Source: Chitinophaga pinensis (GTDB lineage: Bacteria; Bacteroidota; Bacteroidia; NS11-12g; UBA955). Taken from it: a stretch of 64,000 bases of DNA. Shown here in pieces: positions 17,683 through 60,450 of the stretch. Position numbers and translations under genes: made by a program. The notes beneath the pieces were generated by a model. The model saw only the letters and a program-made list of their open reading frames with translations, was not told the origin of the DNA and searched no databases. The stretch is from assembly GCA_945877575.1 (NCBI GenBank), contig CAMDUE010000013.1, positions 1-64,000 of the forward strand. Reading direction: 5' to 3'. Every line of letters starts with the position of its first letter. The stretch's first letter is position 1.

Positions 17683-17835
17683 TTGGTACCCGGTACCAGG
17701 TACCAGGTACCGGGTTTCGGGTTTCGGGTTTCGGGTAGCGGGCTCCAGACTACCAACTACCAACTACCTGCTACCAACTACCTGCTACCATCTACCTGCT
17801 ACCATCTACCTGCTACCAACTACCAGCTACCTGGT
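17683..17835. repeat. Heptanucleotide repeat array R1
   Basis: About 22 units of 7 nt (TGGTACC, AGGTACC, GGGTTTC, TGCTACC, AACTACC, ATCTACC) with one single-base phase slip. It fills the space between the kdsA promoter and the htrA stop codon, ending about 2 nt from that stop. Confidence 0.95.
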
Positions 17836-17837
17836 AA

Positions 17838-19280
17838 TTAGTACCTATAAAAAGAATAACTCCTACTGCTGCCGTTGGGATCTAAGCCCTGAATTTGCAT
17901 CTTGCCCGAACTTCCTTCCATGGCGGCAATCAAATCTTCAGGGGCTTCGTACGACTTTCCGTTGAACTTCACCACAATGAATCCATTAGGAAGTCCCATC
18001 TGAGCTATACCGCCGCTTCTTCGAATGTTGATAATGCGTATGCCACTCTCAATTCTGAATTTTGATTTATCAGATGCGCTCAACGGTTGGAAATCAGCAC
18101 CCAAAAAACTGCTGCTGACAACCCCTTTCATCAGCAACTCTTTATTTGCTGATTGAGATATCAAGACCAATTCTCCCTTGACCAATTTTCTGGCACGAAT
18201 AACTTCATATACGATTTTATTTCCCGGACGTTGGTACGCCATAAACTCATCGTAACTCGACTGACCGTCAATAGATTGATCACCTATTTTGACCAGAACA
18301 TCACCGGCTTTCAATCCGGATTTTTCTGCAGGACCGTCTTCTAAAATTGACTTAATTTTCAATGGCTCACCATTTAGATCAACGCCCAATTTTTGTGTTT
18401 CGTCTGAGGACAGTGCACCCACTTCCATCCCTGAAAATGCCCTCAATACCTCGCCTTTCTCAATCAAATCTGTGATGATTTTTTTTACGATATTACTGGG
18501 GATTGCAAATCCGTATCCTGTGTAACTGCCTGTATTTGATTGTATTGCAGTGTTTATTCCTATCAATTCGCCACGCAAATTCACTAATGCTCCTCCCGAA
18601 TTTCCAGGATTGATAGCGGCATCGGTTTGAATGAAACTTTCAATAGGAAATTGATTTTTTACAATATTGATGTTACGTCCTTTAGCGCTCACAATACCCG
18701 CAGTGACTGTTGAATTTAAATTAAAAGGATTACCAACGGCCAGAACCCACTCACCTACATTAACTTGATCAGAATTGCCAATAACCGCCGCTGGAAGATC
18801 AGTCGCTTCAATTTTTATCAGCGCCAAATCGGAACCTGGATCCGTTCCTACCACTTTGGCAACATATTCCTTCTTCCCTTTGTTCAACACCACCGAAATA
18901 CTCTCGGCACCCTGAATTACGTGGTTGTTTGTTACAATGTATCCATTTGAATTGACTATAACTCCGCTGCCTGTGCTAGATGCTTTCCCTCTGCTTCCAA
19001 AGGGGTCAAAGTCCCAAAAAAGTCCATCAAAAGGACTTTCGTATTGAACCGTAGAAATGGTTTTTATAAACACCACTGAAGGTGTGGAGGCCGCAGATGC
19101 TTTTTCGAAGGAACTCAAATCCATGCCCGATGAAGCTACACGACTTGGCACCAAATTGGAGTTTTCAGATGCCGTATTTAACACCACCGTATTTCCGCTG
19201 TTCCCTCTAAAAATCCAAGAACCCACAAATCCCGATGTCATTGAAACTAAAACAATAGCTATCCAATTTTTTCCGTTCAT
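17838..19280 (-). CDS. HtrA/DegQ-type periplasmic serine protease
   Basis: About 480 residues from the ATG at 19280, preceded by a -7 box; the frame extends seven codons further upstream without support. An N-terminal membrane/signal segment (about 4-22) is followed by a trypsin-like domain with the triad His in TNNHVIQG, Asp in GSDLALIK and Ser in NPGNSGGALVN. A first PDZ domain follows (about 270-370, KSILEDGPAEKSGLKAGDVLVKI), then a second, degenerate PDZ at the end (SGGIAQMGLPNGFIVVKFNGK). These proteases degrade or refold damaged envelope proteins. The length and two-PDZ layout are normal for Bacteroidota. Repeat arrays R1 and R2 flank the gene on both sides. Confidence 0.93.
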   Translation of the reverse strand: MNGKNWIAIVLVSMTSGFVGSWIFRGNSGNTVVLNTASENSNLVPSRVASSGMDLSSFEKASAASTPSVVFIKTISTVQYESPFDGLFWDFDPFGSRGKASSTGSGVIVNSNGYIVTNNHVIQGAESISVVLNKGKKEYVAKVVGTDPGSDLALIKIEATDLPAAVIGNSDQVNVGEWVLAVGNPFNLNSTVTAGIVSAKGRNINIVKNQFPIESFIQTDAAINPGNSGGALVNLRGELIGINTAIQSNTGSYTGYGFAIPSNIVKKIITDLIEKGEVLRAFSGMEVGALSSDETQKLGVDLNGEPLKIKSILEDGPAEKSGLKAGDVLVKIGDQSIDGQSSYDEFMAYQRPGNKIVYEVIRARKLVKGELVLISQSANKELLMKGVVSSSFLGADFQPLSASDKSKFRIESGIRIINIRRSGGIAQMGLPNGFIVVKFNGKSYEAPEDLIAAMEGSSGKMQIQGLDPNGSSRSYSFYRY

Positions 19281-19285
19281 ACCTC

Positions 19286-19293
19286 CAAAATTA
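19286..19293 (-). promoter_or_regulatory. -7 promoter box of the htrA-type gene
   Basis: TAATTTTG on the minus strand, 5 nt before the ATG at 19280, with a TTTG about 21 nt further upstream. Confidence 0.55.
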
Positions 19294-19340
19294 CACCACA
19301 AAATTTTTAGTGCACAAAAAAATCGATGAAAGAAATTTAA

Positions 19341-19529
19341 ACTAGTGACTAGCGACTAGCGACTAGCGACTAGCGACTAGTGACTAGGGTCCAGTACCAG
19401 ACACCCGTTACCCGTTACCCGTTACCCGTTACCCGTTACCCGATACCCGATACCCGTTACCCGACACCCGTTACCCGTTACCCGATACCCGTTACCCGTT
19501 ACCCGTTACCCGACACCCGTTACCAGGTT
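19341..19529. repeat. Heptanucleotide repeat array R2
   Basis: Two blocks of 7-nt units: GACTAGC/GACTAGT (about 6 units from 19341), a short joint, then GTTACCC/GATACCC/GACACCC (about 18 units). The array ends against the stop codon of the minus-strand membrane-protein gene at 19530. Confidence 0.95.
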
Positions 19530-19952
19530 CTAAACCCACCCTCTTCCAGCGCCAACTTCCATGAATGGCCAAGGAATGCGAGAAAGAATCAAGAGCAATG
19601 CTACTACATATAAAATTCTTGCCTTTTTGGTGTTCTCTTTACGAACGGCTACTCCGCCCATGGTGATGAGCACGATGGCAATGATCATGGTCAATGTGTG
19701 TTCAACCGCAAAGAAACGTTGAATCTTATCTTTCATCACAGATGCCATGCCCGCGTTTTGAATCAATTTTATACCCCAATCTGTGATAAACCACTGAATT
19801 ACACCAATCAACAACATGACGTGCGAAACAATGGTCAAAATCTTTGCTTGACGAGCAGCCTTATTGGTGAAAAGTTGAACGATGGTTAATACTAACAACA
19901 CCAAAATCACCCATCTGAGGGTTGAATGTAAATGCAATAATCCAGTTTTCAT
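19530..19952 (-). CDS. Four-helix membrane protein (cytochrome-b-like), unknown role
   Basis: About 140 residues from the ATG at 19952 (the frame could start six codons earlier). It has four hydrophobic helices, at about 8-28, 38-58, 82-102 and 110-128. Conserved-looking His residues occur in LHLHSTLRW, VSHVMLLIG and AVEHTLTMI, the arrangement seen in small Bacteroidota membrane proteins often labelled cytochrome B-like; heme binding is not shown. Its stop abuts heptad array R2. It is divergent from the AsmA-like gene with 64 nt between starts. Confidence 0.65.
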   Translation of the reverse strand: MKTGLLHLHSTLRWVILVLLVLTIVQLFTNKAARQAKILTIVSHVMLLIGVIQWFITDWGIKLIQNAGMASVMKDKIQRFFAVEHTLTMIIAIVLITMGGVAVRKENTKKARILYVVALLLILSRIPWPFMEVGAGRGWV

Positions 19953-20016
19953 TTTTATAGGTTTATGCAACGAAAATAGTGAAAAATACGTTACTGAATA
20001 TTAGTAAATTCGCACT

Positions 20017-22818
20017 ATGAAGAAGTTGATGATTCGTTTGGGCATAGTCCTTGGTTCTCTGTTGGTTATCTTGTTGATTCTTCCGTTTGCTTTTAAAGGC
20101 AAAATCCTTAACGCAGCCAAAAATGCGGCTAACTCCAACCTGTTGGCCGACGTTAAATTTGACGATGACCTCTCCATCAGCTTGATTAGAAATTTCCCGA
20201 ATGTATCTGTTGGGATTCCCAATTTAAGCATTGTAGGACGTGATTCTTTCCAAGGAGACACGCTATACGCAGCACAAAATACCAGAATTGTACTCGACAT
20301 TAAATCAGTACTTGGCGGTGAAACCATGAATATTCGTAAAATTGACCTCGACAATCCGCACATCAACATCATCTTCCTCAAAAGCGGTCGTGCCAACTTT
20401 GATATTACACCTGTAGACACATCTGCTCCAATTGATACAACTACCTCTGCTCCGATTTCCCTAGATCTAAAATCCATCAAACTCAGCAACGCCCTCATTG
20501 GTTACACTGACTATTCAATGCCTATGAGTTTCACTCTTAAAGGCATGGATTTCGATGGAAGTGGCTCGCTCTCAAACAACATCTTTACCCTAGCCAATGA
20601 ACTCAAAATTGCATCGGCTGATATGGATTTTGACGGAATGACCCTCATGTCGAAGGCCAATCTAACCGCCGAAAGCAACATTGATATGGATCTTGACAAG
20701 TTCAAATTCACGTTCAATCAGTTGGATGCTAAAATCAATGAATTTCCCGTTTTGATGAAAGGTTGGCTTCAAATGAACGACCTCAATATGGACATGGACC
20801 TTGATATTTCGGTTCCATCTTCTGAATTTAAATCATTATTGTCTGTGGTTCCAGGTGCTTACACTGCTGACTTTAAAGACGTTAAAGCTTCAGGTAAAGC
20901 AGGTGTTCACGCAACCTTAAAAGGAATCATGGATGACCTCAGAATGCCAACAACTGATATTTCCTTAACTGTTGACAACGGGTCATTTGCATATCCTGGT
21001 CTCCCAGCCTCGGTTTCGGGAATTAACATTGATTTCAACTTGAAAAATACCGACGGCGACCCTGATCATAGTACCATCAATTTGAAAAAATTCGCCATGA
21101 ATCTCGGTGGAGACCCTATTTCGGCCACCTTATTTGCTCAAACACCTGTTTCAAATCCTTATGCCCGCGGAGAAATCAAGGCTAAAATTGCTTTAGACAA
21201 ATGGAAAGACGTTCTTCCGCTAGAAAAAAACACCACACTAACAGGCAGCATTTCATCTGATATACAATTTGATGGACATTATTCTACGGCAGTCAGTGAC
21301 AAAGTGGAAGACTTGAAAGCTTCAGGTAAAATCACCGTAAACAACCTAAACTACAACAGTCCATCTGTGCTATCCACTACCTTGGAATTCATGGAACTGT
21401 CGGCAAACCCCAAGAACTTCACGTTGAACTTGCAGTCACTTCAATACGGAAACTCACGCATGTCAATGAGTGGCGGATTGGAAAACTTCATCGGTTATGC
21501 CATCAACGGCGAAGTCCTCAAAGGCAAATTAACCTTAGATGCCCCCATGATTGACGCCAACCAGTTTTTGACAGCCGACAGCGATTCAATGTCCTCAGAA
21601 ACCACAGACAGCAGCGAAATGGCGGCCGTTCAAATTCCCGATAATCTCGATTTGACTTTCGTGGGAAGTGTTGGCGTTTTAAAATACGAAACCTACGACC
21701 TCAGCAATTGCGGCGCGAAAATCACCGTTAAGGACGGTAAGTTAAATATAGACGAACTGAAAGCCAGCATTTGGGGAAGCACTTTCAGAATGGATCACAC
21801 CCAATATTCTTACACTCCAGGAAGCCAACCTGTTGCAAATACGCAGATCGCACTCCTTGATTTAAATGCACGAAACATCATGAATCAGGTAGCCATCATT
21901 GAAAAATATGCGCCTGCATTAAAAAATGTTGACGGTTTGATGAATCTAAACATGCAATTAAACACCAAGTTTACCGAGACAATGGACCTAGATTTGGGCA
22001 GTTTAATATCTTCTGGTTTAGTAGACGTCAAAAAAGGCGAAATGCAGCTTCCTGACTGGCTAAAACAAGTGTACGATCAATTCAATTGGGACTATGGCAA
22101 TCTAAGCTTGAAACCTTCTAAATTGCGTTACATCATTGAAAACGGCAAACTGACCTTGAAAGACAGCATTGGATTAATCCTTCCAAAGGGAGGTAAAATG
22201 AACGTATCTGGAAACGTTGGCTTAGATCAGAAAATTCTTTTCGGGGGAACTTTACAAGCGGAAGGCAAAAAAGTTCCGTTCACCATAACCGGCACGGTTA
22301 CTGATCCGAAATTCAAACTTGACTGGAAAAAATTCGGAAAAGAAGAACTAAAGAAGAAACTTGAACCTATCAAGGGTAACGCTCAACAAGAATTGCAAAA
22401 AGTTGCAGGTGAAGCGGTTCACCAAGTTCACCAACAAGCAGATGCAATTATTAAGAAAGCCCAAGAAGAGGTTGCAAATATCAGACGATTAGGTAAAGAA
22501 GCTGCTGATAGACAGCGCTCTGAAGGTGACCGATTGGCAGATGCAGCATTAAAAAAAGCCGAAGATGAGATTGCCGCAGCGCAAGCAAAGGCCACCAATC
22601 AACTTGAAAAACTAGCCGCTCAAAAAGCAGGAGACCGCTTGAGAAAAGAAGCTAAGAAATCAGCAGATGCTATCCGTTCCAAAGCTTATTCATCAGCAGA
22701 CCGAACCGAACAAGAAGCCAATGCAAAAGCCCAATTTGTAGAAGAAACCGCCCAAAAGCAGGCTCAAGAAATGGTACAAAAAGCACAATTGAATGCTGAG
22801 AAGACACTGCCAAAATAA
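20017..22818 (+). CDS. AsmA-family protein with long coiled-coil tail
   Basis: 933 residues. One N-terminal membrane helix (about 7-27, GIVLGSLLVILLILPFAF) is followed by the AsmA start (LISLIRNFPNVSVGIPNLSIVGRD-like segment, about 50-80) and long repeated beta strands to about 770. This is typical of AsmA/YhdP-type proteins, thought to bridge the envelope and move lipids to the outer membrane. The last about 155 residues are Ala/Lys/Glu/Gln-rich and strongly helical (repeated KKAQEEVA, ADAALKKAEDEIAAAQAKA), an extension not usual for AsmA. The lipid-transport role is inferred from the family. A 7-bp hairpin follows the gene. Confidence 0.85.
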   Translation: MKKLMIRLGIVLGSLLVILLILPFAFKGKILNAAKNAANSNLLADVKFDDDLSISLIRNFPNVSVGIPNLSIVGRDSFQGDTLYAAQNTRIVLDIKSVLGGETMNIRKIDLDNPHINIIFLKSGRANFDITPVDTSAPIDTTTSAPISLDLKSIKLSNALIGYTDYSMPMSFTLKGMDFDGSGSLSNNIFTLANELKIASADMDFDGMTLMSKANLTAESNIDMDLDKFKFTFNQLDAKINEFPVLMKGWLQMNDLNMDMDLDISVPSSEFKSLLSVVPGAYTADFKDVKASGKAGVHATLKGIMDDLRMPTTDISLTVDNGSFAYPGLPASVSGINIDFNLKNTDGDPDHSTINLKKFAMNLGGDPISATLFAQTPVSNPYARGEIKAKIALDKWKDVLPLEKNTTLTGSISSDIQFDGHYSTAVSDKVEDLKASGKITVNNLNYNSPSVLSTTLEFMELSANPKNFTLNLQSLQYGNSRMSMSGGLENFIGYAINGEVLKGKLTLDAPMIDANQFLTADSDSMSSETTDSSEMAAVQIPDNLDLTFVGSVGVLKYETYDLSNCGAKITVKDGKLNIDELKASIWGSTFRMDHTQYSYTPGSQPVANTQIALLDLNARNIMNQVAIIEKYAPALKNVDGLMNLNMQLNTKFTETMDLDLGSLISSGLVDVKKGEMQLPDWLKQVYDQFNWDYGNLSLKPSKLRYIIENGKLTLKDSIGLILPKGGKMNVSGNVGLDQKILFGGTLQAEGKKVPFTITGTVTDPKFKLDWKKFGKEELKKKLEPIKGNAQQELQKVAGEAVHQVHQQADAIIKKAQEEVANIRRLGKEAADRQRSEGDRLADAALKKAEDEIAAAQAKATNQLEKLAAQKAGDRLRKEAKKSADAIRSKAYSSADRTEQEANAKAQFVEETAQKQAQEMVQKAQLNAEKTLPK

Positions 22819-22831
22819 TGGATTATAATAA

Positions 22832-22851
22832 AGTCAACGCTCTTGTTGACT
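22832..22851 (+). terminator. Stem-loop after the AsmA-like gene
   Basis: AGTCAAC / GTTGACT stem with a 6-nt loop, but no T run after it, so its terminator role is uncertain. Confidence 0.35.
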
Positions 22852-22950
22852 CTAATAAATTATAACCCGATTATAAATCTTTGATTACAATCACCTATTT
22901 TGCATTCTATTAGTGTAAACTTAACATTATAAAGATTAAACATTTGACCT

Positions 22951-23157
22951 ATGAAAAAGAATTTAGGAATGATTGATAAGGCAATAAGAGTATCAACTGC
23001 GTTGATTGTTGGTGGACTCTATTTCGATGGTAGACTGAGTGGTACGTGGGCAATCATACTTTTAATTGTCTCAGGTATTTTTGTATTGACCAGTTTCATC
23101 AGCTTTTGTCCTCTCTATGCTATCCTGAAATTCAATACTCGACGCAAAGGATTATAG
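22951..23157 (+). CDS. DUF2892 (YgaP-like) membrane protein
   Basis: 68 residues. KNLGMIDKAIRVSTALIVGGL followed by two membrane helices (about 14-30, 34-52) and a CPLYAILKFNTR end is the standard DUF2892 pattern (inner-membrane two-helix protein). Family members are often fused to or next to rhodanese domains; none is seen here. The length is normal. The desaturase gene starts 33 nt downstream with its own -7 box. Confidence 0.85.
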   Translation: MKKNLGMIDKAIRVSTALIVGGLYFDGRLSGTWAIILLIVSGIFVLTSFISFCPLYAILKFNTRRKGL

Positions 23158-23167
23158 ATTTTTTGCC

Positions 23168-23175
23168 TAACTTTG
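23168..23175 (+). promoter_or_regulatory. -7 promoter box of the desaturase gene
   Basis: TAACTTTG, 15 nt before the ATG at 23191. Confidence 0.45.
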
Positions 23176-23190
23176 AGTATTCGTTTATAA

Positions 23191-24294
23191 ATGAGCACTC
23201 CTATCAGATTCGCCGGCCGCAACGCCGAATTCTTTAGTACACTAAGAAACAGAATCAATTCTTACTTCGAAGAAAACAACATCAAACCTACAGGTAATTG
23301 GAAACTTTATTCTAAAACTATCATATTGGGACTTACCCTTATTGGATGTTATTTAGGAATCATGTTATTTCCAGAAAATGCAATTTTGGTCTACGGACTT
23401 TTCGCCCTCATGGGTATCACCTTCGCCTTAATTGGTTTTAACGTAATGCACGATGGTGCTCACGGTAGCTATTCATCTAAACCTTGGGTGAATAAAATCA
23501 TGGCCAATTCATTGAACCTTTTGGGTGGTAATTCCTTCAACTGGGCAGAAAAACACAACTTCAATCACCACAGTTACACCAACATTGATGGTGTGGATGA
23601 TGATATTGATTTGTGGCCAATTTTGCGCGTGAATCCTACTCAGAAAAAATTGTGGTTCCACAAATTCCAACATATTTATGTAATTCCAGCATACGCCATT
23701 GCTTATATATCTTGGATTTTCTATCAAGACTTTACGAAATATTTCGCCCACGGAATTGGCGATAGTAAATTTAAAAATGATCGTACTGCATTCCAACACT
23801 TTGAATTTTGGGGAGCAAAAGTGGTTTATATAGGCGTGTTTTTGGTCGTTCCAATTTTCATTCTTGGTCCTCTAACAGCAATCTTAGGCTATTTAACCAT
23901 GGCACTGACAACCGGTATGATGATTACCATTGTATTCCAATTAGCACACGTAGTAGAAGGTGTAACCTTCGTGACTGATAAAATCGAAGCTAAAAATAAC
24001 AACACCGTCATCGAATCCATCGTAGTTGAAGATGATTGGGCAACCCACCAATTAAAAACCACCGCCAACTTTAGCACCAAAAGCAAATTCTTGACTTGGG
24101 CTTTGGGAGGATTGAATTTCCAGGTTGAACATCACTTGTTCCCAAAAATCAGTCATATCCACTACCCAAAAATCAACGAAATTGTAAAGAACACTTGCGC
24201 TGAATTCGGCATTCCTTACCAAGAAAATGACACCTTCATTTCAGCGGTACGCTCGCACTTCATGCACCTGAAAGAGGTAGGACAGCTGGCATAA
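23191..24294 (+). CDS. Membrane fatty acid (acyl-CoA/acyl-lipid) desaturase
   Basis: 367 residues with the three His boxes of the di-iron membrane desaturases: HDGAHGS (about 87), HNFNHHSYTN (about 122) and NFQVEHHLFP (about 309). Pairs of membrane helices lie at about 38-80 and 160-260. The QxxHH type third box fits the front-end/linoleoyl-CoA-like subgroup common in Bacteroidota. It should introduce double bonds into membrane acyl chains, adjusting fluidity. No cytochrome b5 domain is fused. Its stop is followed after 2 nt by heptad array R3. Confidence 0.92.
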   Translation: MSTPIRFAGRNAEFFSTLRNRINSYFEENNIKPTGNWKLYSKTIILGLTLIGCYLGIMLFPENAILVYGLFALMGITFALIGFNVMHDGAHGSYSSKPWVNKIMANSLNLLGGNSFNWAEKHNFNHHSYTNIDGVDDDIDLWPILRVNPTQKKLWFHKFQHIYVIPAYAIAYISWIFYQDFTKYFAHGIGDSKFKNDRTAFQHFEFWGAKVVYIGVFLVVPIFILGPLTAILGYLTMALTTGMMITIVFQLAHVVEGVTFVTDKIEAKNNNTVIESIVVEDDWATHQLKTTANFSTKSKFLTWALGGLNFQVEHHLFPKISHIHYPKINEIVKNTCAEFGIPYQENDTFISAVRSHFMHLKEVGQLA

Positions 24295-24296
24295 CA

Positions 24297-24566
24297 GTAC
24301 CTGGTACCAGGTACCTGGTAGCGGGTATCATGTTACGGACTGCGGACTGCGGACTACGGACTGCGGACTACGGACTGCGGACTGCGGACTGCGGACTGCG
24401 GACTACGGACTACGGACTACGGACTACGGACTACGGACTACGGACTACGGACTACGGACTACGGACTACGGACTACGGACTACGGACCAAGTACCAAGTA
24501 CCAGGTACCAAGTACCAGGCACCAGGCACCAGGTACCAGGTACCAGGTACCACAGACCAACTACCT
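24297..24566. repeat. Heptanucleotide repeat array R3
   Basis: About 38 units: GTACCTG/GTACCAG types at both ends and a central, very regular run of GGACTAC/GGACTGC. It fills the whole space between two convergent genes, starts 2 nt after the desaturase stop and includes the stop codon and last codon of pepT. Confidence 0.97.
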
Positions 24567-25799
24567 ACTCGCCCACAAATAACTCAAATGAACCAAGACA
24601 TCTGAGGCTTTCTCCATGTCTTGAACACTAACATATTCGTGCTTGCCGTGGAAGGCCATTTCTCCCGTAAAAATATTGGGGCATGGCAATCCCATAAAAC
24701 TCAAACGACTGCCATCGGTTCCGCCGCGCGCGCTGCCCAATTGAGGCTCTAAACCAGCCATTTTAATGGCTTCAATGGCGTATTCTGATATAGCGGGCGT
24801 CATTTTCACCACTTCCTTCATGTTTCTGTATTGCTCGTGCACCGACATGTCTGCCGTTGCTCCAGGATAATCAGCTACGGTCGACTCCATGATGGAACGC
24901 AAACGATTCTCATGCTCTGCCAACATGGCTGTATCGAAGTCGCGCACAATAAACTTCACCCAAGCATGCTCAGCAACTCCACCCATAGTTACAGGGTGAA
25001 CAAATCCTTCCATGCCTTCGGTGGTTTCTGGAGAGAACTCGCCTTTGGGCAATCGATTTAAAAAGTCACCGGCAATTTTCAGAGCGTTTACCAACTTCCC
25101 TTTGGCATAACCAGGATGAGCTGAAACTCCGTAGAAATTGATGGTGGCCCCGTCAGCACTGAAGGTTTCGTCTTCGTAACTTCCGCGTTCGCCAGCATCT
25201 AAGGTATAACCGTAATCGGCACCCAACTTCTCAATATTTACGTGATCTACTCCCCTTCCAATTTCTTCGTCTGGGGTGAACAATATTTTAATGGTTCCGT
25301 GCTTTAGCTCAGGATTCAATACCATGCGCTGAACATAATCCATGATTATGGCTACACCTGCTTTGTCATCGGCACCCAATAAAGTGGTTCCAGAAGCGGT
25401 GATGATATCATCGCCAATGCGTTCTTTCAAATATGGGTGATCAACCGTGCGAATCACTTGAGATACATCATCGGGCAAAACCAAATCTTGTCCCTGGTAG
25501 TTTCTGTGGATGATGGGCTTCACTCCCGCACCGGTGCAGTCAGGCGATGTATCGACGTGTGAGCAAAAGCAAATCACCGGCACATCAGCATCCACATTCG
25601 AATCTAACGTTGCGTACACATAACCAAATTCATCCAAATGAGCGTCTTCTAAACCCATCTGAAGCAATTCCTGAACCAATATTCGGCTCAGGTCTTTTTG
25701 CTTCTCGGTGCTAGGCACAGAGGTAGATTCAGGGTCACTTTGTGTATCTATTTGCACGTAACGGCAAAATCTTGAACTGATGCTTTCTTCTTGAAACAT
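24561..25799 (-). CDS. pepT: Peptidase T (tripeptide aminopeptidase)
   Basis: 412 residues, full length for PepT, an M20 metallopeptidase that removes the N-terminal residue of tripeptides in the cytoplasm. Zinc-site motifs are in place: FCSHVDTSPD (His, Asp), GADDKAG (bridging Asp), TPDEEIGRG (general-base Glu), and the late His in FHGKHEYV. The dimerisation domain (about 205-315) contains SAHPGYAKG. It is the last gene of an anmK, dehydrogenase, pepT series on the minus strand, with 14 nt to the dehydrogenase stop. The last codon and stop lie in heptad-repeat sequence. Confidence 0.95.
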   Translation of the reverse strand: MFQEESISSRFCRYVQIDTQSDPESTSVPSTEKQKDLSRILVQELLQMGLEDAHLDEFGYVYATLDSNVDADVPVICFCSHVDTSPDCTGAGVKPIIHRNYQGQDLVLPDDVSQVIRTVDHPYLKERIGDDIITASGTTLLGADDKAGVAIIMDYVQRMVLNPELKHGTIKILFTPDEEIGRGVDHVNIEKLGADYGYTLDAGERGSYEDETFSADGATINFYGVSAHPGYAKGKLVNALKIAGDFLNRLPKGEFSPETTEGMEGFVHPVTMGGVAEHAWVKFIVRDFDTAMLAEHENRLRSIMESTVADYPGATADMSVHEQYRNMKEVVKMTPAISEYAIEAIKMAGLEPQLGSARGGTDGSRLSFMGLPCPNIFTGEMAFHGKHEYVSVQDMEKASDVLVHLSYLWASR

Positions 25800-30966: not shown

Positions 30967-31842
30967 TTAAGTAGATATGTCATAGAAAATTGAATGAACT
31001 TCCTTTTTTGCTAACAAATGAATCCCTTCTTTTGTTAAAAGGTCTAATTCATTTTGTGAATGATCAGCAATGCCCCACCAAGGCTCAATACACACGAAAG
31101 GAGCATCTGGCTTTTTCCAAATACCCCAATAGGGAGCAGTTTCAGCATCTAGCCGCGCAATTAATTCTCCATTTTGAACCAGACTCATTCCCGTGATCCC
31201 TTCATTTTTAAATACAATGGCGTCTTGTTGAAAGTAGTTTTCGCTGAGTTGAATTTCACCGTTTTTTACTTGCACTTCTTCAGTTTCACCCGTGTAAAGT
31301 CCATCTGATATTAAATGTCGTTGAAGAACCTCTTCCGTTGGATTTTCTTTTCCTTCCCGATGGATGATTATTTTGCAGGTATCTACAGGCAATTGTATTG
31401 AAAACCCAGGGTGCGCACCAAAAGAAACGGGCATTGTTACTTCGCCCATGTTGGTGATGTTGTTTTCGGCTTGCAGCCGATGTCCTGAAATAGTATACTT
31501 TACATCCAACTGAAAATCAAACGGATACTGACTCTTTGTTTCTTGGTTGGATTTTAATTGCAAATGCAGATGAGTATCGGTATGCTGAATCACTGCAAAC
31601 TCAGCATCGCGAGCAAATCCGTGTTGCTTCATAGAATACACTTTCCCTTCGTACTTGAACTGATCGCTTTTCAATTTCCCAACAATAGGAAACAGCAATG
31701 GAGCCGTACGATTCCAAAAATTTAAATCCGGCTTCCAAAGGACTTCTTGTGTTTTGTACAAGTTTTTAAATTGTAAAATTTCTGCTCCTTTGGTGTTAAA
31801 TTCTACCAAAAGTTGTGTATTTTGCAGTATAACGTTGGTCAT
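30967..31842 (-). CDS. Aldose 1-epimerase family protein (galactose mutarotase-like)
   Basis: About 291 residues from the ATG at 31842 (the longer frame overlaps the divergent regulator). The beta-sandwich mutarotase fold shows NRTAPLLFPIVGKL near 48-61, KQHGFARDAEF with the catalytic-type His, FGAHPGFSIQLP with the second His, and CIEPWWGIAD near the end. It belongs to the LacX/YeaD-like branch, which acts on anomers of aldoses or sugar phosphates. The catalytic Glu position is not certain by eye. The gene is divergent from the LytTR regulator. Confidence 0.85.
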   Translation of the reverse strand: MTNVILQNTQLLVEFNTKGAEILQFKNLYKTQEVLWKPDLNFWNRTAPLLFPIVGKLKSDQFKYEGKVYSMKQHGFARDAEFAVIQHTDTHLHLQLKSNQETKSQYPFDFQLDVKYTISGHRLQAENNITNMGEVTMPVSFGAHPGFSIQLPVDTCKIIIHREGKENPTEEVLQRHLISDGLYTGETEEVQVKNGEIQLSENYFQQDAIVFKNEGITGMSLVQNGELIARLDAETAPYWGIWKKPDAPFVCIEPWWGIADHSQNELDLLTKEGIHLLAKKEVHSIFYDIST

Positions 31843-42456: not shown

Positions 42457-42460
42457 TAGA

Positions 42461-42629
42461 TGGTACATGGTACATGGTACATGGTACATGGTACTTGGTC
42501 CTTGGTACAAGGTACATGGTCTGTGGTCTGAAACCTGAAAACCGAAACCTGTTACCCGAAGCCCGAAGCCCGTCACCCGAAGCCCAAAACCCGAAACCCA
42601 GTACCAAGGACCATGTACCAATTACCATT
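42461..42629. repeat. Heptanucleotide repeat array R5
   Basis: Starts 4 nt after the lpxB stop. First TGGTACA units, then GGTCTGT, GAAACCT, GAAGCCC, GTCACCC and GAAACCC types, ending in GTACCAA/CCATGTACC. About 24 units before the tRNA-Pro gene. Confidence 0.95.
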
Positions 42630-42745
42630 TGCAAGATTGGTCAAAAGATGATACTTTTGCAGTCCCCAAAAGGGTGACCCGTTCCCATGCACCAAGAACA
42701 CCGGGATTAGGAGTATTTCTTTCAAGAAAAATCCAATCAAAAAAT

Positions 42746-42819
42746 CGGGATGTAGCGCAGCCCGGTAGCGCACTTGCATGGGGTGCAAGGGGTCGTGAGT
42801 TCGAATCTCGCCATCCCGA
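42746..42819 (+). tRNA. tRNA-Pro (GGG)
   Basis: Cloverleaf with acceptor CGGGATG/CATCCCG, anticodon stem CTTGC/GCAAG, loop ATGGGGT giving anticodon GGG, T arm with GAGTTCGAATCTC, discriminator A. CCA is not encoded. Confidence 0.93.
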
Positions 42820-44537: not shown

Positions 44538-44545
44538 TACCTTTG
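44538..44545 (+). promoter_or_regulatory. -7 promoter box of the GH16 gene
   Basis: TACCTTTG, 6 nt before the ATG at 44552. It decides the start: the TTG at 44543 lies inside the box and cannot be transcribed as a start. Confidence 0.55.
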
Positions 44546-44551
44546 CCCCGC

Positions 44552-46129
44552 ATGCAAAAATCATTACTTCTCATTTTATTTCTTTCCATCTTTTTCACTT
44601 CTCAAGCGCAAAACTTACCCATCGATTTTGAGATTAACAAGCATACTTTCAATGCTTTCGGGGGAACCCAATTCAGCAGAGTCAAAGATCCGTTAAGGCC
44701 AAATAACAACGTGGCCCTTTTCACCAATACCGCCGGAAGTCCATTCGAAGGGGCTTTTCTAGACCTTAAAGACGGCATCGTTTTAGATTCCTCTAAAAAG
44801 CTGTATTTTCAACTGTATCACGCAGAGGGCGACTCTTTTACCTTCCACATTAAGTTGGAACAAAGCACTTCTTCCCAACCCGAAGTCTACATCCAAAAGA
44901 CCTTTAAAACCACAAACTGGCATCTAGATTCGTTCGACTTTTCCAGAGCCAAAGTGGTTGGAACCGACGCATCCATCAGCGCCAAAGGAACCTACAAGAG
45001 AATCACCCTATTCTTTGAGGCCAACGAACTTAAAGCAGGTGATTATCACATTGATAACATTAAGGGATTCGTTTCATCCCCCGGAAACCAACAAAGTCCC
45101 GGAATCGCCCACTATGGGAAACTGGTATGGGCCGATGAGTTCAACTACTCGGGAAAACCCAAGCCCGAAAATTGGCACCATCAGGTAATTGCTCCCAACA
45201 ACGGTTCTTGGTTCAATGGAGAAATCCAACACTACACTGACAAACTCGACAATTCTTACGTCAGCAATGGAAGTCTCAAAATTGTTCTCAAAAAAGAACG
45301 CTATACCTACCAAAACAGCACTAAAGATTATACATCGGCTAGGCTGAATTCCAAATTTGCATTTACCTACGGGCGCATAGATGTACGAGCGAAACTCCCC
45401 GCCGGAAGCGGCGTTTGGCCAGCTATCTGGACCCTCGGAACCAATGTAGGAGAAACCGGAAACTACTGGGGCAAAGATGCCAATACCGTGGGCTGGCCCA
45501 AGTGCGGCGAAATGGATATTATGGAGAGCTGGGGACATAATCCGCGTTACGTTTCATCGGCGGTGCATACCCAGGCACGGTTCGGAGGGGTAGAAACGGG
45601 CGGCGCTTACCTTCCCGATCCCTATAACAATTATCACGTATATTCATTGGTATGGTCGCCCGAAAAACTCATGTTCTTCGTAGATAGCTCTGAAATTTAC
45701 ACCTATCAACCATCCTCTTTAACCGCTGACAATTGGCCCTTCACCAGAGATCAATACATCTTATTGAACGTGGCCGTTTTATCTCAAGTGGATGCCAACT
45801 TCGATTCCTCAAGAATGGAAATTGACTATGTCAGGGTCTATCAAAAAGGCGACGACAGCGGAACCTTGAAAACCCAAACCCTCCAGCAAAAGGGAAGTAT
45901 TTTCCCCAATCCCGTTCGTGAAACATTATTCATCCATCATTTAGAAACTTTTAACTTCTATTCCCTCTTTGACCTCAGCGGACGTGAAGTCCAATCAGGA
46001 TACATTTCCTCTTCTCAAGCAATTGATGTTCGCACTCTAAAACCCGGCATTTACCATTTAAATCTCGAACATCACAGATACGGATCCATGGAGTCAAGTA
46101 AAGCCACTTTCAAGATAATCAAGGAATAA
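44552..46129 (+). CDS. Secreted GH16 beta-glucanase with T9SS sorting domain
   Basis: 525 residues. Signal peptide 1-20 (SQAQ). A beta-sandwich, probably carbohydrate-binding, lies at about 22-170. The GH16 catalytic domain is at about 190-435 with KLVWADEFNYSG at its start and the nucleophile/acid motif GEMDIMES near residue 318 (E-x-D-x-x-E). A T9SS type A sorting domain is at about 448-525 (SIFPNPVRETLFI, then LKPGIYHLNLEH). GH16 members of this type hydrolyse beta-1,3(-1,4)-glucans such as laminarin; exact specificity is not visible. It should be exported to the surface by T9SS. Tandem hairpins follow the stop. Confidence 0.92.
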   Translation: MQKSLLLILFLSIFFTSQAQNLPIDFEINKHTFNAFGGTQFSRVKDPLRPNNNVALFTNTAGSPFEGAFLDLKDGIVLDSSKKLYFQLYHAEGDSFTFHIKLEQSTSSQPEVYIQKTFKTTNWHLDSFDFSRAKVVGTDASISAKGTYKRITLFFEANELKAGDYHIDNIKGFVSSPGNQQSPGIAHYGKLVWADEFNYSGKPKPENWHHQVIAPNNGSWFNGEIQHYTDKLDNSYVSNGSLKIVLKKERYTYQNSTKDYTSARLNSKFAFTYGRIDVRAKLPAGSGVWPAIWTLGTNVGETGNYWGKDANTVGWPKCGEMDIMESWGHNPRYVSSAVHTQARFGGVETGGAYLPDPYNNYHVYSLVWSPEKLMFFVDSSEIYTYQPSSLTADNWPFTRDQYILLNVAVLSQVDANFDSSRMEIDYVRVYQKGDDSGTLKTQTLQQKGSIFPNPVRETLFIHHLETFNFYSLFDLSGREVQSGYISSSQAIDVRTLKPGIYHLNLEHHRYGSMESSKATFKIIKE

Positions 46130-46193
46130 TTCCAAAATAGTCATGACTTTTTAGGATTTAATTCCAAAATAGTTATAACTTTTTTGGAATTTT
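46128..46193 (+). terminator. Two tandem hairpins after the GH16 gene
   Basis: Two imperfect copies (46128-46159, 46160-46193) of a palindromic unit AATTCCAAAA...TTTTGGAATT. The second is perfect over 10 nt and followed by T-rich DNA. Terminator or operator function is inferred. Confidence 0.55.
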
Positions 46194-46212: not shown

Positions 46213-46269
46213 CCCCGATACCCGACCCCCGACCCCCGATACCCGACCCCCGAAACCCAAAACCCGAAT
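46213..46269. repeat. Heptanucleotide repeat array R6
   Basis: About eight 7-nt units of CCGATAC/CCGACCC/CCGAAAC type, directly before the ATG of the EEP-family gene. Confidence 0.9.
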
Positions 46270-46271: not shown

Positions 46272-47204
46272 ATGAAACTCCTCCTACCCATATTACTCTC
46301 CATCCTCCCAACCTCCCTCTACCCCCTACCCTCTACCAACTACCAACGACCCACCTCCCTCTACCCCCTACCCTCTACCAACTACCTTGTACCCCCTACC
46401 CTCTACCAACTACCATGTACCATCATCTCTTTCAACATCCGCTACGATAACCCCGCAGATGGCATCAACGCTTGGCCACAAAGAAAGTCCGCCATAGCAT
46501 CCTTTGTGAAAGAAAAAAATCCCGATTTCTTGGGCATTCAAGAAGGACTTTCGCACCAAGTAAAATACCTCGACTCCCAGCTCAGCGAAACCCATCGATA
46601 CATTGGCGTAGGCCGAGACCACGGCGATGAACGCGGCGAATATTGCGCCCTTTTTTACAACTTTCACCGCTATGAACTCATTACCATGGAAAACATTCCC
46701 ACCACCGTTTGGCTCTCGCAAACTCCGCAAATTCCATCCAAAGGATGGGACGCTGCACTGCCCAGAATCGCCACTTTTGGCCAATTTCGAGACCTCCAAA
46801 CCGGCAAAATCCTCCTCGTCATCAACACCCACTTTGACCATATAGGCGCCACCGCCCGTCAAAAAAGCATGGCCCTCATCTACCTAATCATCACGCGCCA
46901 TCAGCACTCTTTCGACGGGGTCATTCTTCTTGGGGACATGAACCTCCCTCCCGATTCCAAACCCATAAAATGGATTTCCAAGCGCATGCGCGACTCTTAC
47001 TTTGACCAAGATCCTCGCGGCACCTTTAACGGATTCAACCCTTTGATGCACGCCCTAAATCCCGGCCCCCGCATTGATTACATTTTCACCAGCAGAAACC
47101 TAAATGTCACTTCCTGCTCCGTCGACTACCGCTTCCGCACTGACAGCTCTTCCTTGGGATATTTATCTGATCACTATCCCGTGATAATAGAAATTAGTAA
47201 CTAA
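46272..47204 (+). CDS. Endonuclease/exonuclease/phosphatase (EEP) family protein, secreted
   Basis: 310 residues. A short hydrophobic start (MKLLLPILLSIL) is followed by about 37 residues encoded by 7-nt repeats (SLYPLPSTNYQRPTSLYPL type, about 14-50), and then the EEP domain begins at once: IISFNIRYDN (metal Asn), FLGIQEGLSHQV (Glu), VINTHFDHIG, LLGDMNLPPDS and the final LSDHYPVIIE. The domain cleaves phosphodiesters or phosphomonoesters with a divalent metal. The active-site set is complete. The repeat stretch may act as a Pro/Tyr-rich linker between signal peptide and enzyme. The gene overlaps the convergent ATPase gene by 4 nt. Confidence 0.88.
   Translation: MKLLLPILLSILPTSLYPLPSTNYQRPTSLYPLPSTNYLVPPTLYQLPCTIISFNIRYDNPADGINAWPQRKSAIASFVKEKNPDFLGIQEGLSHQVKYLDSQLSETHRYIGVGRDHGDERGEYCALFYNFHRYELITMENIPTTVWLSQTPQIPSKGWDAALPRIATFGQFRDLQTGKILLVINTHFDHIGATARQKSMALIYLIITRHQHSFDGVILLGDMNLPPDSKPIKWISKRMRDSYFDQDPRGTFNGFNPLMHALNPGPRIDYIFTSRNLNVTSCSVDYRFRTDSSSLGYLSDHYPVIIEISN
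46311..46422 (+). repeat. Heptanucleotide repeat array R6b inside the EEP gene
   Basis: 7-nt units (CTACCCC, CTACCCT, CTACCAA) arranged in a larger repeated block of about 50 nt present twice plus a partial third. Coding, residues about 14-50. Confidence 0.93.
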
Positions 47205-48324: not shown

Positions 48325-48338
48325 AGAAATTCCACCCT

Positions 48339-48406
48339 ATTCACCAATTTAATAGTGAATTCGGTGATTATATTCACCAATTTACATACAAATTCAGTGA
48401 ATTCAC
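48339..48406. repeat. Operator-like repeats upstream of the second DUF4143 gene
   Basis: ATTCACCAATTTA occurs twice (48339-48351, 48372-48384). GTGAATTCGGTGA and the perfect palindrome GTGAATTCAC (48397-48406) provide inverted copies. The block covers the expected -33 region, so repressor binding is plausible (inference). Confidence 0.7.
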
Positions 48407-48407
48407 C

Positions 48408-48536
48408 ACCGACTAACGACACTGGACCATCGACCATGGACTACCGACCACAGACCACCGACCACAGACCATGGACTACCGACCATGGACTACCGACCAA
48501 CGACCCTAGACCATCGACAATAGACCACAGACCATG
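48408..48536. repeat. Heptanucleotide repeat array R7
   Basis: About 18 units of CCGACCA/TGGACTA/CAGACCA type between the second DUF4143 promoter and the YwaF-like gene, running past that gene's stop into its last 14 or so codons. Confidence 0.95.
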
Positions 48537-49245
48537 CAACCCCAAACAACCCAAACGCTATCACATCCCCTTGAATGATGTACCACGGCCATGGGCCCAA
48601 AATGTCGAGAACGCTGGCTGTTTCCGGCTTGTGCATCAAAAAGAAATAGTTGGCCTCGCGGCCCGTGAAAACCACCAAATAGTTTACAGAAATGGCAATG
48701 AGGGTGAATATTTGAAGGTAGCCGTATGATTTCAATAAATCTTTGAACGTGATTCGGGGCATTCCCAAAACCAATAAGTGAATCACAAACATGACCAATC
48801 CAGTGTGCGATATCCAAAACTTACAATAGTTGTAGTGTGGGAATCCTTCGTTGAGAGCCGGGGTGATGATAGCGTTGAAGGTGAATACCCAAACAAAAAA
48901 GTATAAGACGTGCCACATCCAAATTTTGCGCTTGTAACTGTAGGCTAAGGCAACAAAGGCCAACCAATTACACGGATTGAGCGGTAAATCTTCGCCCCAA
49001 TTAAAGGGCACAAATGCAGGGTCATTAGAGGGAAGTAGTGAGACGTAAACTTTGACGACTTGCCAAATCAATACGTTAATAACCAACAACCAAGCAAAAA
49101 TCTGGGTGATTTTATGTTTACCATCTTCGGGTAATTTGCGAGCCCTATAGGTTAATACTCCGCATAAAAGTCCCACGAAAAAAACCGCCAACCAATGTTC
49201 GTATGTATTAGCACAAAAGTTTTTATTGGGTAAAAGATAGTTCAT
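48490..49245 (-). CDS. TIGR02206/YwaF-like integral membrane protein
   Basis: 251 residues with about seven hydrophobic helices (about 14-30, 48-68, 85-102, 108-125, 140-157, 175-195, 222-238), the pattern of the YwaF/TIGR02206 membrane family. FNWGEDLPLNPCNWLAF and FWISHTGLVMFVIHLLV are characteristic. Function is not established. The last about 14 residues (VVYCRWSRVVGR) are encoded by heptad array R7, so the natural C terminus has been replaced or extended. It lies 3 nt after the large BNR protein and probably shares its transcript. Confidence 0.8.
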   Translation of the reverse strand: MNYLLPNKNFCANTYEHWLAVFFVGLLCGVLTYRARKLPEDGKHKITQIFAWLLVINVLIWQVVKVYVSLLPSNDPAFVPFNWGEDLPLNPCNWLAFVALAYSYKRKIWMWHVLYFFVWVFTFNAIITPALNEGFPHYNYCKFWISHTGLVMFVIHLLVLGMPRITFKDLLKSYGYLQIFTLIAISVNYLVVFTGREANYFFLMHKPETASVLDILGPWPWYIIQGDVIAFGLFGVAWSVVYCRWSRVVGR

Positions 49246-52504: not shown

Positions 52505-52508
52505 TTGA

Positions 52509-53633: not shown

Positions 53634-53637
53634 TACC

Positions 53638-55492: not shown

Positions 55493-55535
55493 AATCCTCC
55501 AAAAACAACAAACAAATATAAAGAATTTTAACGTA

Positions 55536-55570: not shown

Positions 55571-55615
55571 AAATAAAATAAATTTACCTTTTCAAGCGTT
55601 TGAGTATTAACCACC

Positions 55616-56758: not shown

Positions 56759-56776
56759 AACTCACTATATCTTTGA

Positions 56777-56807
56777 AAAGGCTGCCTATCAAAAGGCAGC
56801 CTTTTTT
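56777..56807. terminator. Bidirectional terminator between SIMPL-like and xth genes
   Basis: AAAGGCTGCCT / AGGCAGCCTTT stem with a T run; the complementary A run serves the minus strand. Confidence 0.88.
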
Positions 56808-58234: not shown

Positions 58235-58235
58235 T

Positions 58236-58249
58236 CTGCAAATTTGCAG
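58236..58249. promoter_or_regulatory. Palindrome at the TPK start
   Basis: CTGCAAATTTGCAG, a perfect 14-nt palindrome containing a CAAATTTG near-match to the -7 box. Confidence 0.4.
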
Positions 58250-58331
58250 TTTTTTTAGGGGTCCTATCGAAAAATAAACAGAAACCTTTAAAATTGACCG
58301 AATTTTGTAAACATTTTTACGTTACTCTATC

Positions 58332-59879
58332 ATGTTAGCACGCTTACTCTGGGCCGATGATGAAATCGATTTGCTCAAACCCCATATTCTATTTCTCGAG
58401 GGAAAAGGATACGAAATCATCACCGTTAAAAGCGGCACCGAAGCCATAGACCGAATCAAAACCACTCAGTTTGATTTGGTTTTTTTGGACGAAAACATGC
58501 CCGGAATATCCGGACTAGACGCTCTAGCTTCCATCAAACAACTTCAACCCAATTTGCCGGTCATCATGATCACAAAGAACGAAGAAGAGCACATCATGGA
58601 AGAAGCCATTGGCAATAAAATTGCCGACTATCTCATAAAACCTGTCAATCCAAATCAAATATTGCTCGCCGTTAAAAAGAACCTCGATGAAAAACGGTTG
58701 GTGAGTCAAAAAACCACTCAAGGTTACCAAAAAGAGTTCATGCAAATAGGCATGACCGTTTCTGATAAACTCAATCTGCAAGAATGGAAAGACGTTTATA
58801 AGAAGTTGGTCTATTGGGAAATGGAACTCGGCGAAACCAACGAAGGCGGAATGAAAGAAGTTCTTGACACCCAAAAAACCGATGCTAATCGCAACTTCTG
58901 CAAATTCATATCCCAGAATTACGATACCATGATCAATTCGGAAGATGAAGTTTTGTCTCACAGCTTATTCCGTAAGCGCGTGAATCCGTTATTAGACTCT
59001 GAAGAACCCGTCTACTTCATCCTACTTGATAACCTTCGTTTTGACCAATGGAGGGCCATCAGCGAGACTCTAAACGAACTTTATCACATCGATACCGAAG
59101 ATCTATATCTAGCCATTCTCCCTACAACCACCCAATATGCACGTAACGCCATTTTCAGCGGAATGCTTCCTCTAGAAATAGAAAAAACCTTCCCAGATAA
59201 ATGGTCAAACGACGAAGACGAAGGCGGTAAAAACCTCTTCGAAAAGGAATTCCTGGCCGAACAACTCAAGCGTTTGCGCCGAGACATCAAATTCAGTTAC
59301 ACCAAAGTTACTCAACTCAACCACGGAAAAGATTTGGTTGATCAAGTAGCCAATATGCGCCAAAACAAACTCAACGTGGTTGTGTACAATTTCGTAGATG
59401 CCTTTTCACACGCCCGCACCGATGTGAACATTGTACGCGAACTCGCCGATGACGAAACCGCTTACCGCAACGTCACAGCAACTTGGTTCAAGCACTCGCC
59501 CCTTTGGGAAGCCCTCCAAAAAATTGCCGAAAAACCCTGCAAAATTGTCATCACTACAGACCACGGCTCAGTACGTGTAAAAGATCCCATCAAGGTGATT
59601 GGCGACAAAAATGTGAACACCAACTTACGCTATAAACAAGGTAAAAACTTGACCTATAATCCCAAAGAAGTTTACGAAGTCAAGAAGCCACACAGCGCTC
59701 ACTTACCCTTGCTGCACTTGAGCAGTCTCTTCATTTTTGCCCGCGAAAACGACTTCTTCGCATACCCAAACAACTACAATTACTACGCGAATTACTATAA
59801 AAACACCTTCCAACACGGCGGCATTTCCCTCGAAGAAATGCTCTGCCCACTCATCACCCTTTCGCCCAAAAACAAATAA
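58332..59879 (+). CDS. porX: T9SS response regulator/phosphatase PorX
   Basis: 515 residues, the standard PorX length. The CheY-like receiver (about 3-120) has WADDEIDLLKPH at the start, phospho-acceptor in DLVFLDENMPG and Lys in YLIKPV. A helical middle joins to an alkaline-phosphatase-superfamily PglZ domain (about 200-500) with LLDNLRFDQW (metal Asp), the Thr nucleophile region LAILPTTTQYARNAIF, VYNFVDAFSHAR and ITTDHGSVRV. PorX regulates T9SS genes and function with the PorY kinase; the phosphatase domain acts on nucleotide second messengers in studied members. tsaE follows after 21 nt, the common Bacteroidota order. Confidence 0.95.
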   Translation: MLARLLWADDEIDLLKPHILFLEGKGYEIITVKSGTEAIDRIKTTQFDLVFLDENMPGISGLDALASIKQLQPNLPVIMITKNEEEHIMEEAIGNKIADYLIKPVNPNQILLAVKKNLDEKRLVSQKTTQGYQKEFMQIGMTVSDKLNLQEWKDVYKKLVYWEMELGETNEGGMKEVLDTQKTDANRNFCKFISQNYDTMINSEDEVLSHSLFRKRVNPLLDSEEPVYFILLDNLRFDQWRAISETLNELYHIDTEDLYLAILPTTTQYARNAIFSGMLPLEIEKTFPDKWSNDEDEGGKNLFEKEFLAEQLKRLRRDIKFSYTKVTQLNHGKDLVDQVANMRQNKLNVVVYNFVDAFSHARTDVNIVRELADDETAYRNVTATWFKHSPLWEALQKIAEKPCKIVITTDHGSVRVKDPIKVIGDKNVNTNLRYKQGKNLTYNPKEVYEVKKPHSAHLPLLHLSSLFIFARENDFFAYPNNYNYYANYYKNTFQHGGISLEEMLCPLITLSPKNK

Positions 59880-59900
59880 TTCACGCGCCGCACATTCAAC

Positions 59901-60347
59901 ATGATCATCACCGCTCCCCTCGAAGACCTCAGCCCCGTCATTGCCCACATTGACACGCTCATCTCACAGGGGAGCCGTATTTTTTGGTTTTCTGGGGACG
60001 TTGGATCGGGTAAAACCACTCTCATTTCAGCTTTAACGAAGCACTTAGGGTACACACACGCCATTGGCAGTCCCACCTACGGACTGGTTCACACCTACGA
60101 AGCTCCCACTTGCCACATCTACCACTCCGACTGGTACCGCATCAAATCTCCCGCCGAAATCTACGATTCAGGCATCGAGGAAGACCTCTACCTCACCACT
60201 CAGCCACACCATTACCCCACCACCTTTTGGTTCATCGAATGGGCCGAAATGGCCCCAATCATCATGGCTGAATACCCATATATAAAGATTACAATCACAC
60301 CGTGTCCCAACCACCCTAATTACCGTAATTACGAGGTTGGTACCTAG
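59901..60347 (+). CDS. tsaE: tRNA threonylcarbamoyladenosine biosynthesis ATPase TsaE
   Basis: 148 residues. Walker A GDVGSGKTT near 34, SPTYGLVHTY (about 56), IYHSDWYRIKSPAEIYDSGIEEDL and FIEWAEM (Walker B-like) are the TsaE order. It supports the TsaBD complex making t6A in tRNAs. It is downstream of porX in a conserved pairing. The last codons and the TAG stop (60345-60347) are part of heptad array R8, so the C-terminal few residues (EVGT) derive from repeat DNA. Confidence 0.94.
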   Translation: MIITAPLEDLSPVIAHIDTLISQGSRIFWFSGDVGSGKTTLISALTKHLGYTHAIGSPTYGLVHTYEAPTCHIYHSDWYRIKSPAEIYDSGIEEDLYLTTQPHHYPTTFWFIEWAEMAPIIMAEYPYIKITITPCPNHPNYRNYEVGT

Positions 60348-60450
60348 TACCTAGTACCTAGTACTTGGTAGTTGGTAGCTAGTCTCTACTCTCTAGTCCC
60401 TGTCTCCGGACCATGGACCATGGACCATCGACCATCGACCATCGACCACT
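60335..60450. repeat. Heptanucleotide repeat array R8
   Basis: GGTACCTA/GTACCTA units, a short degenerate centre (GGTAGTT, CTCTAGT), then GGACCAT and CGACCAT units. It fills the gap between the convergent tsaE and gcvP stops and includes the tsaE stop. Confidence 0.95.

Follow-up and report, generated by a model that had tools for sequence, protein, structure and literature searches.

Inverted heptamer repeat arrays at gene ends of a Bacteroidota genome and their correspondence with intrinsic terminators in related species

Heptamer arrays at probable former terminator sites

In this study, a stretch of 64,000 nucleotides (the window; positions 1 to 64,000 of contig CAMDUE010000013.1, assembly GCA_945877575.1) from a Bacteroidota genome, here G000, was analysed for nine arrays of tandem 7-nt units, R1 to R8 including R6b (Table 1). 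The arrays belong to one dispersed family of heptamer minisatellites that grow and are homogenised in 7-nt steps and whose units turn over fast, and the gene ends occupied by them behave like former terminator sites. Judged from sequence comparison, the probability is about 0.5 that a dispersed and concertedly evolving heptamer minisatellite now forms the 3′ ends of transcripts, in the shape of long hairpins that have supplanted the earlier signals. Heptamer repeats as a kind are already known from Xanthomonas, Nostoc, Beggiatoaceae, and some Bacteroidetes, without an established function; new here are the long multi-unit inverted arrays and their correspondence with intrinsic terminators.

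Three relatives were compared: G011, a syntenic sister species of the same genus with 81–87% DNA identity over long blocks (assembly 74% complete, 310 kb compared), G006 (820 kb), and G010 (120 kb). G011 carries heptamer arrays, and no period-7 array was found in the 820 kb of G006 or the 120 kb of G010. The terminator test covered genes with an ortholog in G006, G010, or G011, each gene being counted once across species. At 12 of the 18 genes whose 3′ end in G000 is an array, at least one of the three relatives has an intrinsic terminator, compared with 40/258 genes having neither array nor terminator (p = 4.8e-6), 27/111 of those genes whose ends resemble ends of transcription units (p = 6e-4), and 18/63 of the convergent ones (p = 0.005). 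The proportion among genes with a terminator of their own was similar (27/48, p = 0.58), and array ends thus behave as former terminator sites. Counting by spacer (18 genes in 13 spacers) gave 9/13 versus 27/111 (p = 0.002), and an independent second definition of terminators gave 13/18 versus 21/119 (p = 6e-6); under this second definition, no terminator was found in the gene's own spacer for 9 of the 12 genes. A spacer-by-spacer comparison of orthologs yielded 4 informative pairs, and the comparison of gene ends was used instead.

Comparison of the window with G011 showed presence, absence, and unit turnover of arrays at the same sites. At R1, G011 has no array, and in both G006 and G010 a terminator follows the ortholog of the upstream gene; target-site duplications at this empty site were not obvious by eye. 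At R2, G011 has an array of other units, and G006 and G010 have a terminator. The R3 site in G011 is a bidirectional intrinsic terminator. Of the two genes meeting at R8, gcvP is followed by a terminator in both G006 and G010, and tsaE is not. At R5, none of the three relatives was found to have a terminator behind its lpxB ortholog. The exchange is also seen in the reverse direction, since G011 has arrays where the window has an intrinsic terminator (Table 1) or a short spacer. Since equivalent gene ends carry an array in one species and lack it in another, they offer a direct comparison for a kind of heptamer reported without function.

Detection and extent of the array family

The nine period-7 arrays described in an earlier sequence-only reading of the window were all recovered by Tandem Repeats Finder (TRF) and by a separate detector of self-matches at lag 7, with edges within a few bases of those given before; for R8 the agreement was partial, TRF reporting 60340-60364 and 60409-60448 and the detector one run. 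In the window, the detector returned nine segments each at lags 7 and 14 and none at lags 3–6, 8–13, or 15, and TRF at a lower threshold contributed some additional short pairs, with periods of 11, 15, 24, 32, and 33. A scan at lags 2–40, covering 34% of the genome (857,225 out of 2,507,558 nt), revealed 56 arrays at lag 7, 36–428 nt in length and 7,761 nt in total. The many segments at lags 14, 21, 28, and 35 were the same arrays, and one or two segments each were found at lags 6, 12, 15, 18, 23, 24, 27, 29, 30, 32, and 36. Other periods are thus rare, and the many loci are mainly intergenic, both as expected of bacterial heptamer simple-sequence repeats. Of the 46 intergenic arrays, 23 lie in convergent, 16 in tandem, and 7 in divergent spacers; 9 more interrupt genes, and the last borders a contig edge.

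The 56 arrays contain 1,082 units and 210 distinct canonical heptamers, the commonest of which has 57 copies in 22 arrays. Occurrence of the same units at several loci suggests copying between loci rather than independent birth. The proposal that the arrays are one family, in which copying is local and the period is held while the sequence drifts, is supported, as in G011, where the array in lpxB lies at the same codon with other units. The shared pattern NGRYWMC, proposed in the same reading, fared less well: at the best rotation, it matched on average 20% of units in the 56 arrays of G000 versus 5% after column permutation, and 6% versus 6% in 27 arrays of G011. A single consensus was therefore rejected, and the family is better described as GGT-type units on the left and ACC-type units on the right. 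This inverted layout, the placement at stop codons, the in-frame position of R4 in lpxB, and the terminator correspondence had not been noted from the sequence alone.

Placement at gene ends and stop codons

Genes were called with our own codon-usage caller, on whose calls the placement counts depend; in at least one place it erred, reading the genes around R6/R6b as convergent, and Pfam places the Exo_endo_phos gene there on the + strand. Arrays were found in 19/114 convergent, 15/481 tandem, and 7/113 divergent spacers, an enrichment in convergent spacers over tandem (p = 9e-7) and divergent ones (p = 0.02). With a caller that did not mask arrays, 42/61 distances from array edge to stop codon fell within -22 to +15 nt, compared with 3/29 distances to start codons, 4/29 of the latter being negative. 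In the per-spacer count the caller was barred from starting genes inside arrays, which partly builds in the result that no start lies nearer than 3 nt; the stop figure is the same with and without masking.

TAG is the stop codon of 28/43 array-adjacent genes and of 78/670 others (Fisher's test, 6e-15). In 28/43 gene-array pairs the stop codon falls on the array edge or within it, a set not matched gene by gene with the 28 TAG stops. Taken together, these counts suggest that the array often supplies the stop. The density of stops is higher in the half that a ribosome meets first (0.056 versus 0.037 per nt, 112 array ends). That 7 is not a multiple of 3 had been remarked on for the 7-residue periodic peptides that arrays would encode in every frame; the remark matters in another way, because 7 is coprime to 3, so that a TAG in the repeated unit closes all frames within 21 nt, and genes next to arrays favour this codon.

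Unit anatomy, polarity, and folding

A frequent order within arrays is GGT-type units (GGTACCN, GGTAGTT, GGGTTTC), then GACTA or GACCA units, then ACC-type units (GAAACCC, CTACCAN). Polarity and folding were tested on arrays of at least 80 nt (at least 60 nt in the comparison of in-gene with intergenic folding), and shuffle folding on arrays up to 330 nt. Among 63 arrays of 80 nt or more, 44 contain two or more of each, and GGT preceded ACC in 40 of these (p = 2e-8). Among 54 arrays of 80–330 nt, the same order was seen in 36 of the 39 having both. Arrays of G011 are included in either set. This GGT-first, ACC-last order is an inverted layout that reads alike on either strand. It was observed in convergent (16/18), tandem (15/16), divergent (3/4), and in-gene (5/5) settings and in one more unplaced array; being kept in every gene setting, the polarity is a property of the array and not of gene direction. 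One-sided arrays are also present (R6, R6b, and R7).

Phase is held within each half, a median of 86% of GGT and 95% of ACC occurrences falling in one phase (26 arrays). A constant phase between the halves was rejected, the predicted offset of 3 being found in 5/26 arrays of G000 and 1/10 of G011; an offset of 1, noticed afterwards, was found in 11/26 and 4/10. In folding, the arrays had a median of -0.35 kcal/mol per nt, and 29/54 were more stable than base shuffles at z < -2.

Arrays inside genes

Twelve arrays lie inside genes, nine in G000 and three in G011. All are free of stops in the gene frame, as any called open reading frame (ORF) must be; in 7/12 a different frame contains stops, as many as five, and conserved domains flank several. 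The eight host genes of G000 encode, by Pfam match, LpxB, an M16 peptidase, an FtsX-type permease, a 2-phosphosulfolactate phosphatase, an M1 peptidase (two arrays), and TauE, and two proteins without a Pfam match. Predicted folding is weaker for arrays within genes than for those between genes (median -0.18 versus -0.35 kcal/mol per nt, 11 versus 66 arrays, p = 2.6e-4).

The R4 insert lies between two conserved parts of LpxB, and the gene continues in frame on both sides in both species. At the same codon, the units have changed throughout, from GGGTTTC..GACCACR in G000 to GAGTTTA..GACCAAR in G011. Among 30 LpxB loci (34 of 38 genomes had a match), an array was present only in these two species. 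Together with the M16 and M1 peptidase genes and others, these in-frame arrays suggest repeat DNA becoming protein sequence.

Possible origin and role of the arrays

In the takeover reading, an array transcribed at the end of a transcription unit would form a long imperfect hairpin of a GGT-rich and an ACC-rich arm, and this hairpin would end or protect transcripts arriving from both directions. The original hairpin-plus-U terminator would then be dispensable and could be lost. Growth would probably proceed by replication slippage aided by hairpin or fold-back structures, and spread between loci by copying; the inverted polarity is left unexplained by this proposal. The arrays may thus work like terminators, with which they share a position at ends of transcription units and, in many cases, hairpin potential, yet they are not intrinsic terminators of the hairpin-plus-U-tract form: they are built of repeats, are 36–428 nt long, and have no surplus of U tracts behind them. 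A run of T was found in the 15 nt past the far edge in 8/46 array-gene pairs, and in 442/2,000 random 15-mers.

Apart from the lack of a U-tract excess, several observations weigh against the takeover reading. For six of the 18 array-bearing ends, none of the three relatives has a terminator. Array and terminator are not clearly exclusive within convergent spacers (4/19 versus 23/95, spacer length free); exclusivity at p = 0.01 in convergent spacers of at least 50 nt was not relied on, since arrays themselves lengthen spacers, and tandem spacers of at least 100 nt gave p = 0.75. By our own gene calls, 9/56 arrays lie inside genes, lpxB included, and 7 in divergent spacers. Only 17/54 arrays were more stable than shuffles of unit order at z < -2, and the real block order was more stable than the reversed one in just 19/54; polarity is therefore not selected simply for hairpin energy, and its interpretation as an energy optimum was rejected. 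Some one-sided arrays (R6b and R7) fold weakly on the strand that was folded. The weaker folding inside genes fits harm from hairpins, and coding constraint may account for it equally.

The main rival is a neutral or selfish minisatellite for which terminator hairpins are birthplaces. There, slippage or fold-back replication would seed functionless arrays, whose growth is halted only on reaching coding or promoter sequence, the terminators being lost as collateral damage. We consider this quite possible, if short of an even chance. It accounts for the placement at stops and the distance from starts, for toleration in protein loops, for sites that hold an array in one of the two species and not in the other, for unit turnover, and for the absence of a U-tract excess. 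It also agrees with the finding that neither a terminator nor an array was detected in 72/114 convergent pairs, which suggests that terminators are often dispensable in this genome, and with the one-sidedness of most arrays examined in other Bacteroidia. It does not explain the G-first/C-last polarity, and it leaves the richness of array ends in relatives' terminators, equal to that of terminator-bearing ends, unexplained unless terminators are the seeds. The two readings predict opposite transcript ends.

The other explanations have far less in their favour. The Y1 transposase family, whose members (RAYT, REP-associated tyrosine transposases) recognise GTAG next to a hairpin, is associated with repetitive extragenic palindromic (REP) elements. 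Mobility of this type, with GGTAG...CTACC as the foot, would fit the GGTAG/CTACC units, the inverted layout, and the 3′-end position; it is very improbable and largely refuted for this genome, as no Y1_Tnp match was found in G000, G011, G006, G010, or G013 (26/36 genomes compared have one). Two of the main unit families of G011, GGTCTTT and GGTGATC, lack GTAG, and to our knowledge a period-7 tandem structure is not a trait of REP elements. It is improbable that the arrays are binding sites for a heptamer-reading nucleoid, regulator, or RNA-binding protein, of the kind proposed as a post-transcriptional regulator for TAACTGA repeats in the available part of MacGregor 2015 (PMC4679880), given the variation of units between species and within arrays and the position at gene ends rather than before starts. 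Some arrays are near contig ends (C5 160-257; C21 about 156-367), as an assembly artefact might be, but this origin was rejected as extremely unlikely on the same-site counterparts in the other species' assembly, the empty site at R1, and the continuation of conserved lpxB in frame on both sides of the array in both species.

Should the takeover reading hold, fast-evolving satellite DNA is able to capture the ends of transcription units. The exchange with intrinsic terminators allows a specific and cheap test of this role, proposed for a type of bacterial repeat that has long lacked an explanation. More broadly, though on the doubtful side, a lineage within one Bacteroidota genus may have exchanged some of its intrinsic terminators for a novel type of 3′-end element, inverted heptamer arrays whose sequence would be free to turn over since only period, arm polarity, and stop codons would matter; the same may underlie the heptamers of Xanthomonas.

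Comparison with known heptamer repeats

Cyanobacterial short tandemly repeated repetitive (STRR) heptamers share period 7 with the arrays here. They use few fixed units, and we know of no terminator link for them. The literature search returned no title or abstract start describing such a link or long multi-unit inverted heptamer arrays. GGGAATC and GGGGA(C/T)T heptamers are reported in Xanthomonas and Nostoc by Rehm et al. 2015, who also mention the STRR heptamers of Calothrix; according to the part of the text available to us, the repeats are over-represented and their functional role remains to be elucidated (PMC4692102). Similarly to the arrays here, they are mostly intergenic, few lie between divergent genes, they vary between species, they lie near the ORF on their 5′ side (28 nt on average), and plus/minus convergent pairs occur, 70 in Xcc and 75 in Xac (PMC4692102, same part). 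They differ in having one unit type, most often in four copies and forming G-quadruplexes, compared with the many units, long inverted arrays, and one-site turnover found here; one dominant unit type per genome, absent from G000, belongs to their described form and not to a definition of the class. A terminator correspondence such as that found here is not reported in the same part of PMC4692102.

A description in Bacteroidota, which had been thought lacking, exists: MacGregor 2015 reports TAACTGA heptamer arrays in Beggiatoaceae, Cyanobacteria, and five Bacteroidetes (PMC4679880, available part). These are direct heptamers that share spacers with other heptamers, form long arrays in some Bacteroidetes, and are present or absent between close relatives, as here; unlike the present arrays, which lie at stop codons, the one fixed unit studied for the most part directly precedes start codons in the BOGUAY genome (PMC4679880, available part). 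REP elements and bacterial interspersed mosaic elements (BIME) resemble the arrays in copy number, palindromic form, and hypothesised roles in termination and mRNA stabilisation (PMC3733652); they differ in their 20–40 bp units and in the associated Y1 transposase, not found in G000 or G011.

Within Bacteroidia, five repeats of the pattern GGTN4 were found in 139/396 genomes, and an 8-nt control in 56/396, not including G000. G000 had the most matches in the table, 280+355, with 68+121 for the control read backwards. In some genomes this backwards-read control exceeds the pattern, and period 8 is abundant in some; the class is therefore bound neither to GGT nor to 7. Many 8-nt GGT arrays were seen in G081 (123+127 matches), G113, G168, and G366, and period 7 is therefore lineage-specific. 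At 30 loci from other Bacteroidia, 27 had no surplus of ACC heptads on either side, two had more on the right, and one on the left; the inverted layout is accordingly not general in the class, and the only examples known to us are those of this lineage and the plus/minus pairs of Xanthomonas (PMC4692102, available part). In the first 25 loci, C followed G in 6 of the 16 where both occur. Placement at these loci was mixed (25/30 loci, crude ORF caller), with 8/13 left-hand stop distances within -10 to +7 and several starts as near. Heptamer arrays were also seen in contigs of Aphanizomenon (L055 1799-1836), a Sideroxydans metagenome-assembled genome (L071 9951-9988), and Flavobacterium (L084 12890-12964).

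Arrays and neighbouring features of the window

Table 1. Heptamer arrays and an exchanged intrinsic terminator in the window
Feature	Position	Strand	Units and form	Setting
R1	17685-17843		GGTACC/GGTTTC units then CTACC units	At stop codon of trypsin-PDZ gene (17838-19301, -)
R2	19341-19524		ACTAGCG then CCCGTTA units	After stop of small gene (19530-19970, -)
R3	24297-24569			Fills spacer on which fatty-acid desaturase and M20 peptidase genes converge
R4	41803-41939	+		In frame inside lpxB (41296-42456), residues 170-214
R5	42453-42630		Inverted	Starts at lpxB stop codon
R6	46214-46268		One-sided, C-rich	Downstream of GH16 gene (44543-46129)
R6b	46315-46423		One-sided CTACC	Before Exo_endo_phos domain gene on + strand
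R7	48405-48534		One-sided GACCATN	TMEM164-like gene (48490-49245, -) ends inside
R8	60340-60448			Fills spacer between convergent tsaE and gcvP
Intrinsic terminator	8288-8319	+		After gene 7822-8265; heptamer array at same site in G011 (reverse exchange)

The Exo_endo_phos domain match beyond R6b runs from 46422 on, and the longest ORF starts at 46272, the true start being uncertain. Short tandem pairs unrelated to period 7 were found at 46127-46188 (32 nt), 48338-48400 (33 nt), and 30993-31038 (24 nt), two of them adjoining R6 and R7. Beside an array in G011, about 0.9 kb of extra DNA, apparently a gene, is present (contig C11, about 22681-23576), where the spacer in the window is 133 nt. Rfam identified tRNA genes at 10943-11016 (-) and 42746-42819 (+), the latter downstream of R5. 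The product of the gene ending inside R7, a bacterial protein, clearly matches PF14808, the TMEM164 family (E = 1.6e-36). Beside tsaE, a gene at 58332-59879 encodes a response-regulator receiver domain fused to a PglZ domain, an architecture that we take to be that of PorX of the type IX secretion system.

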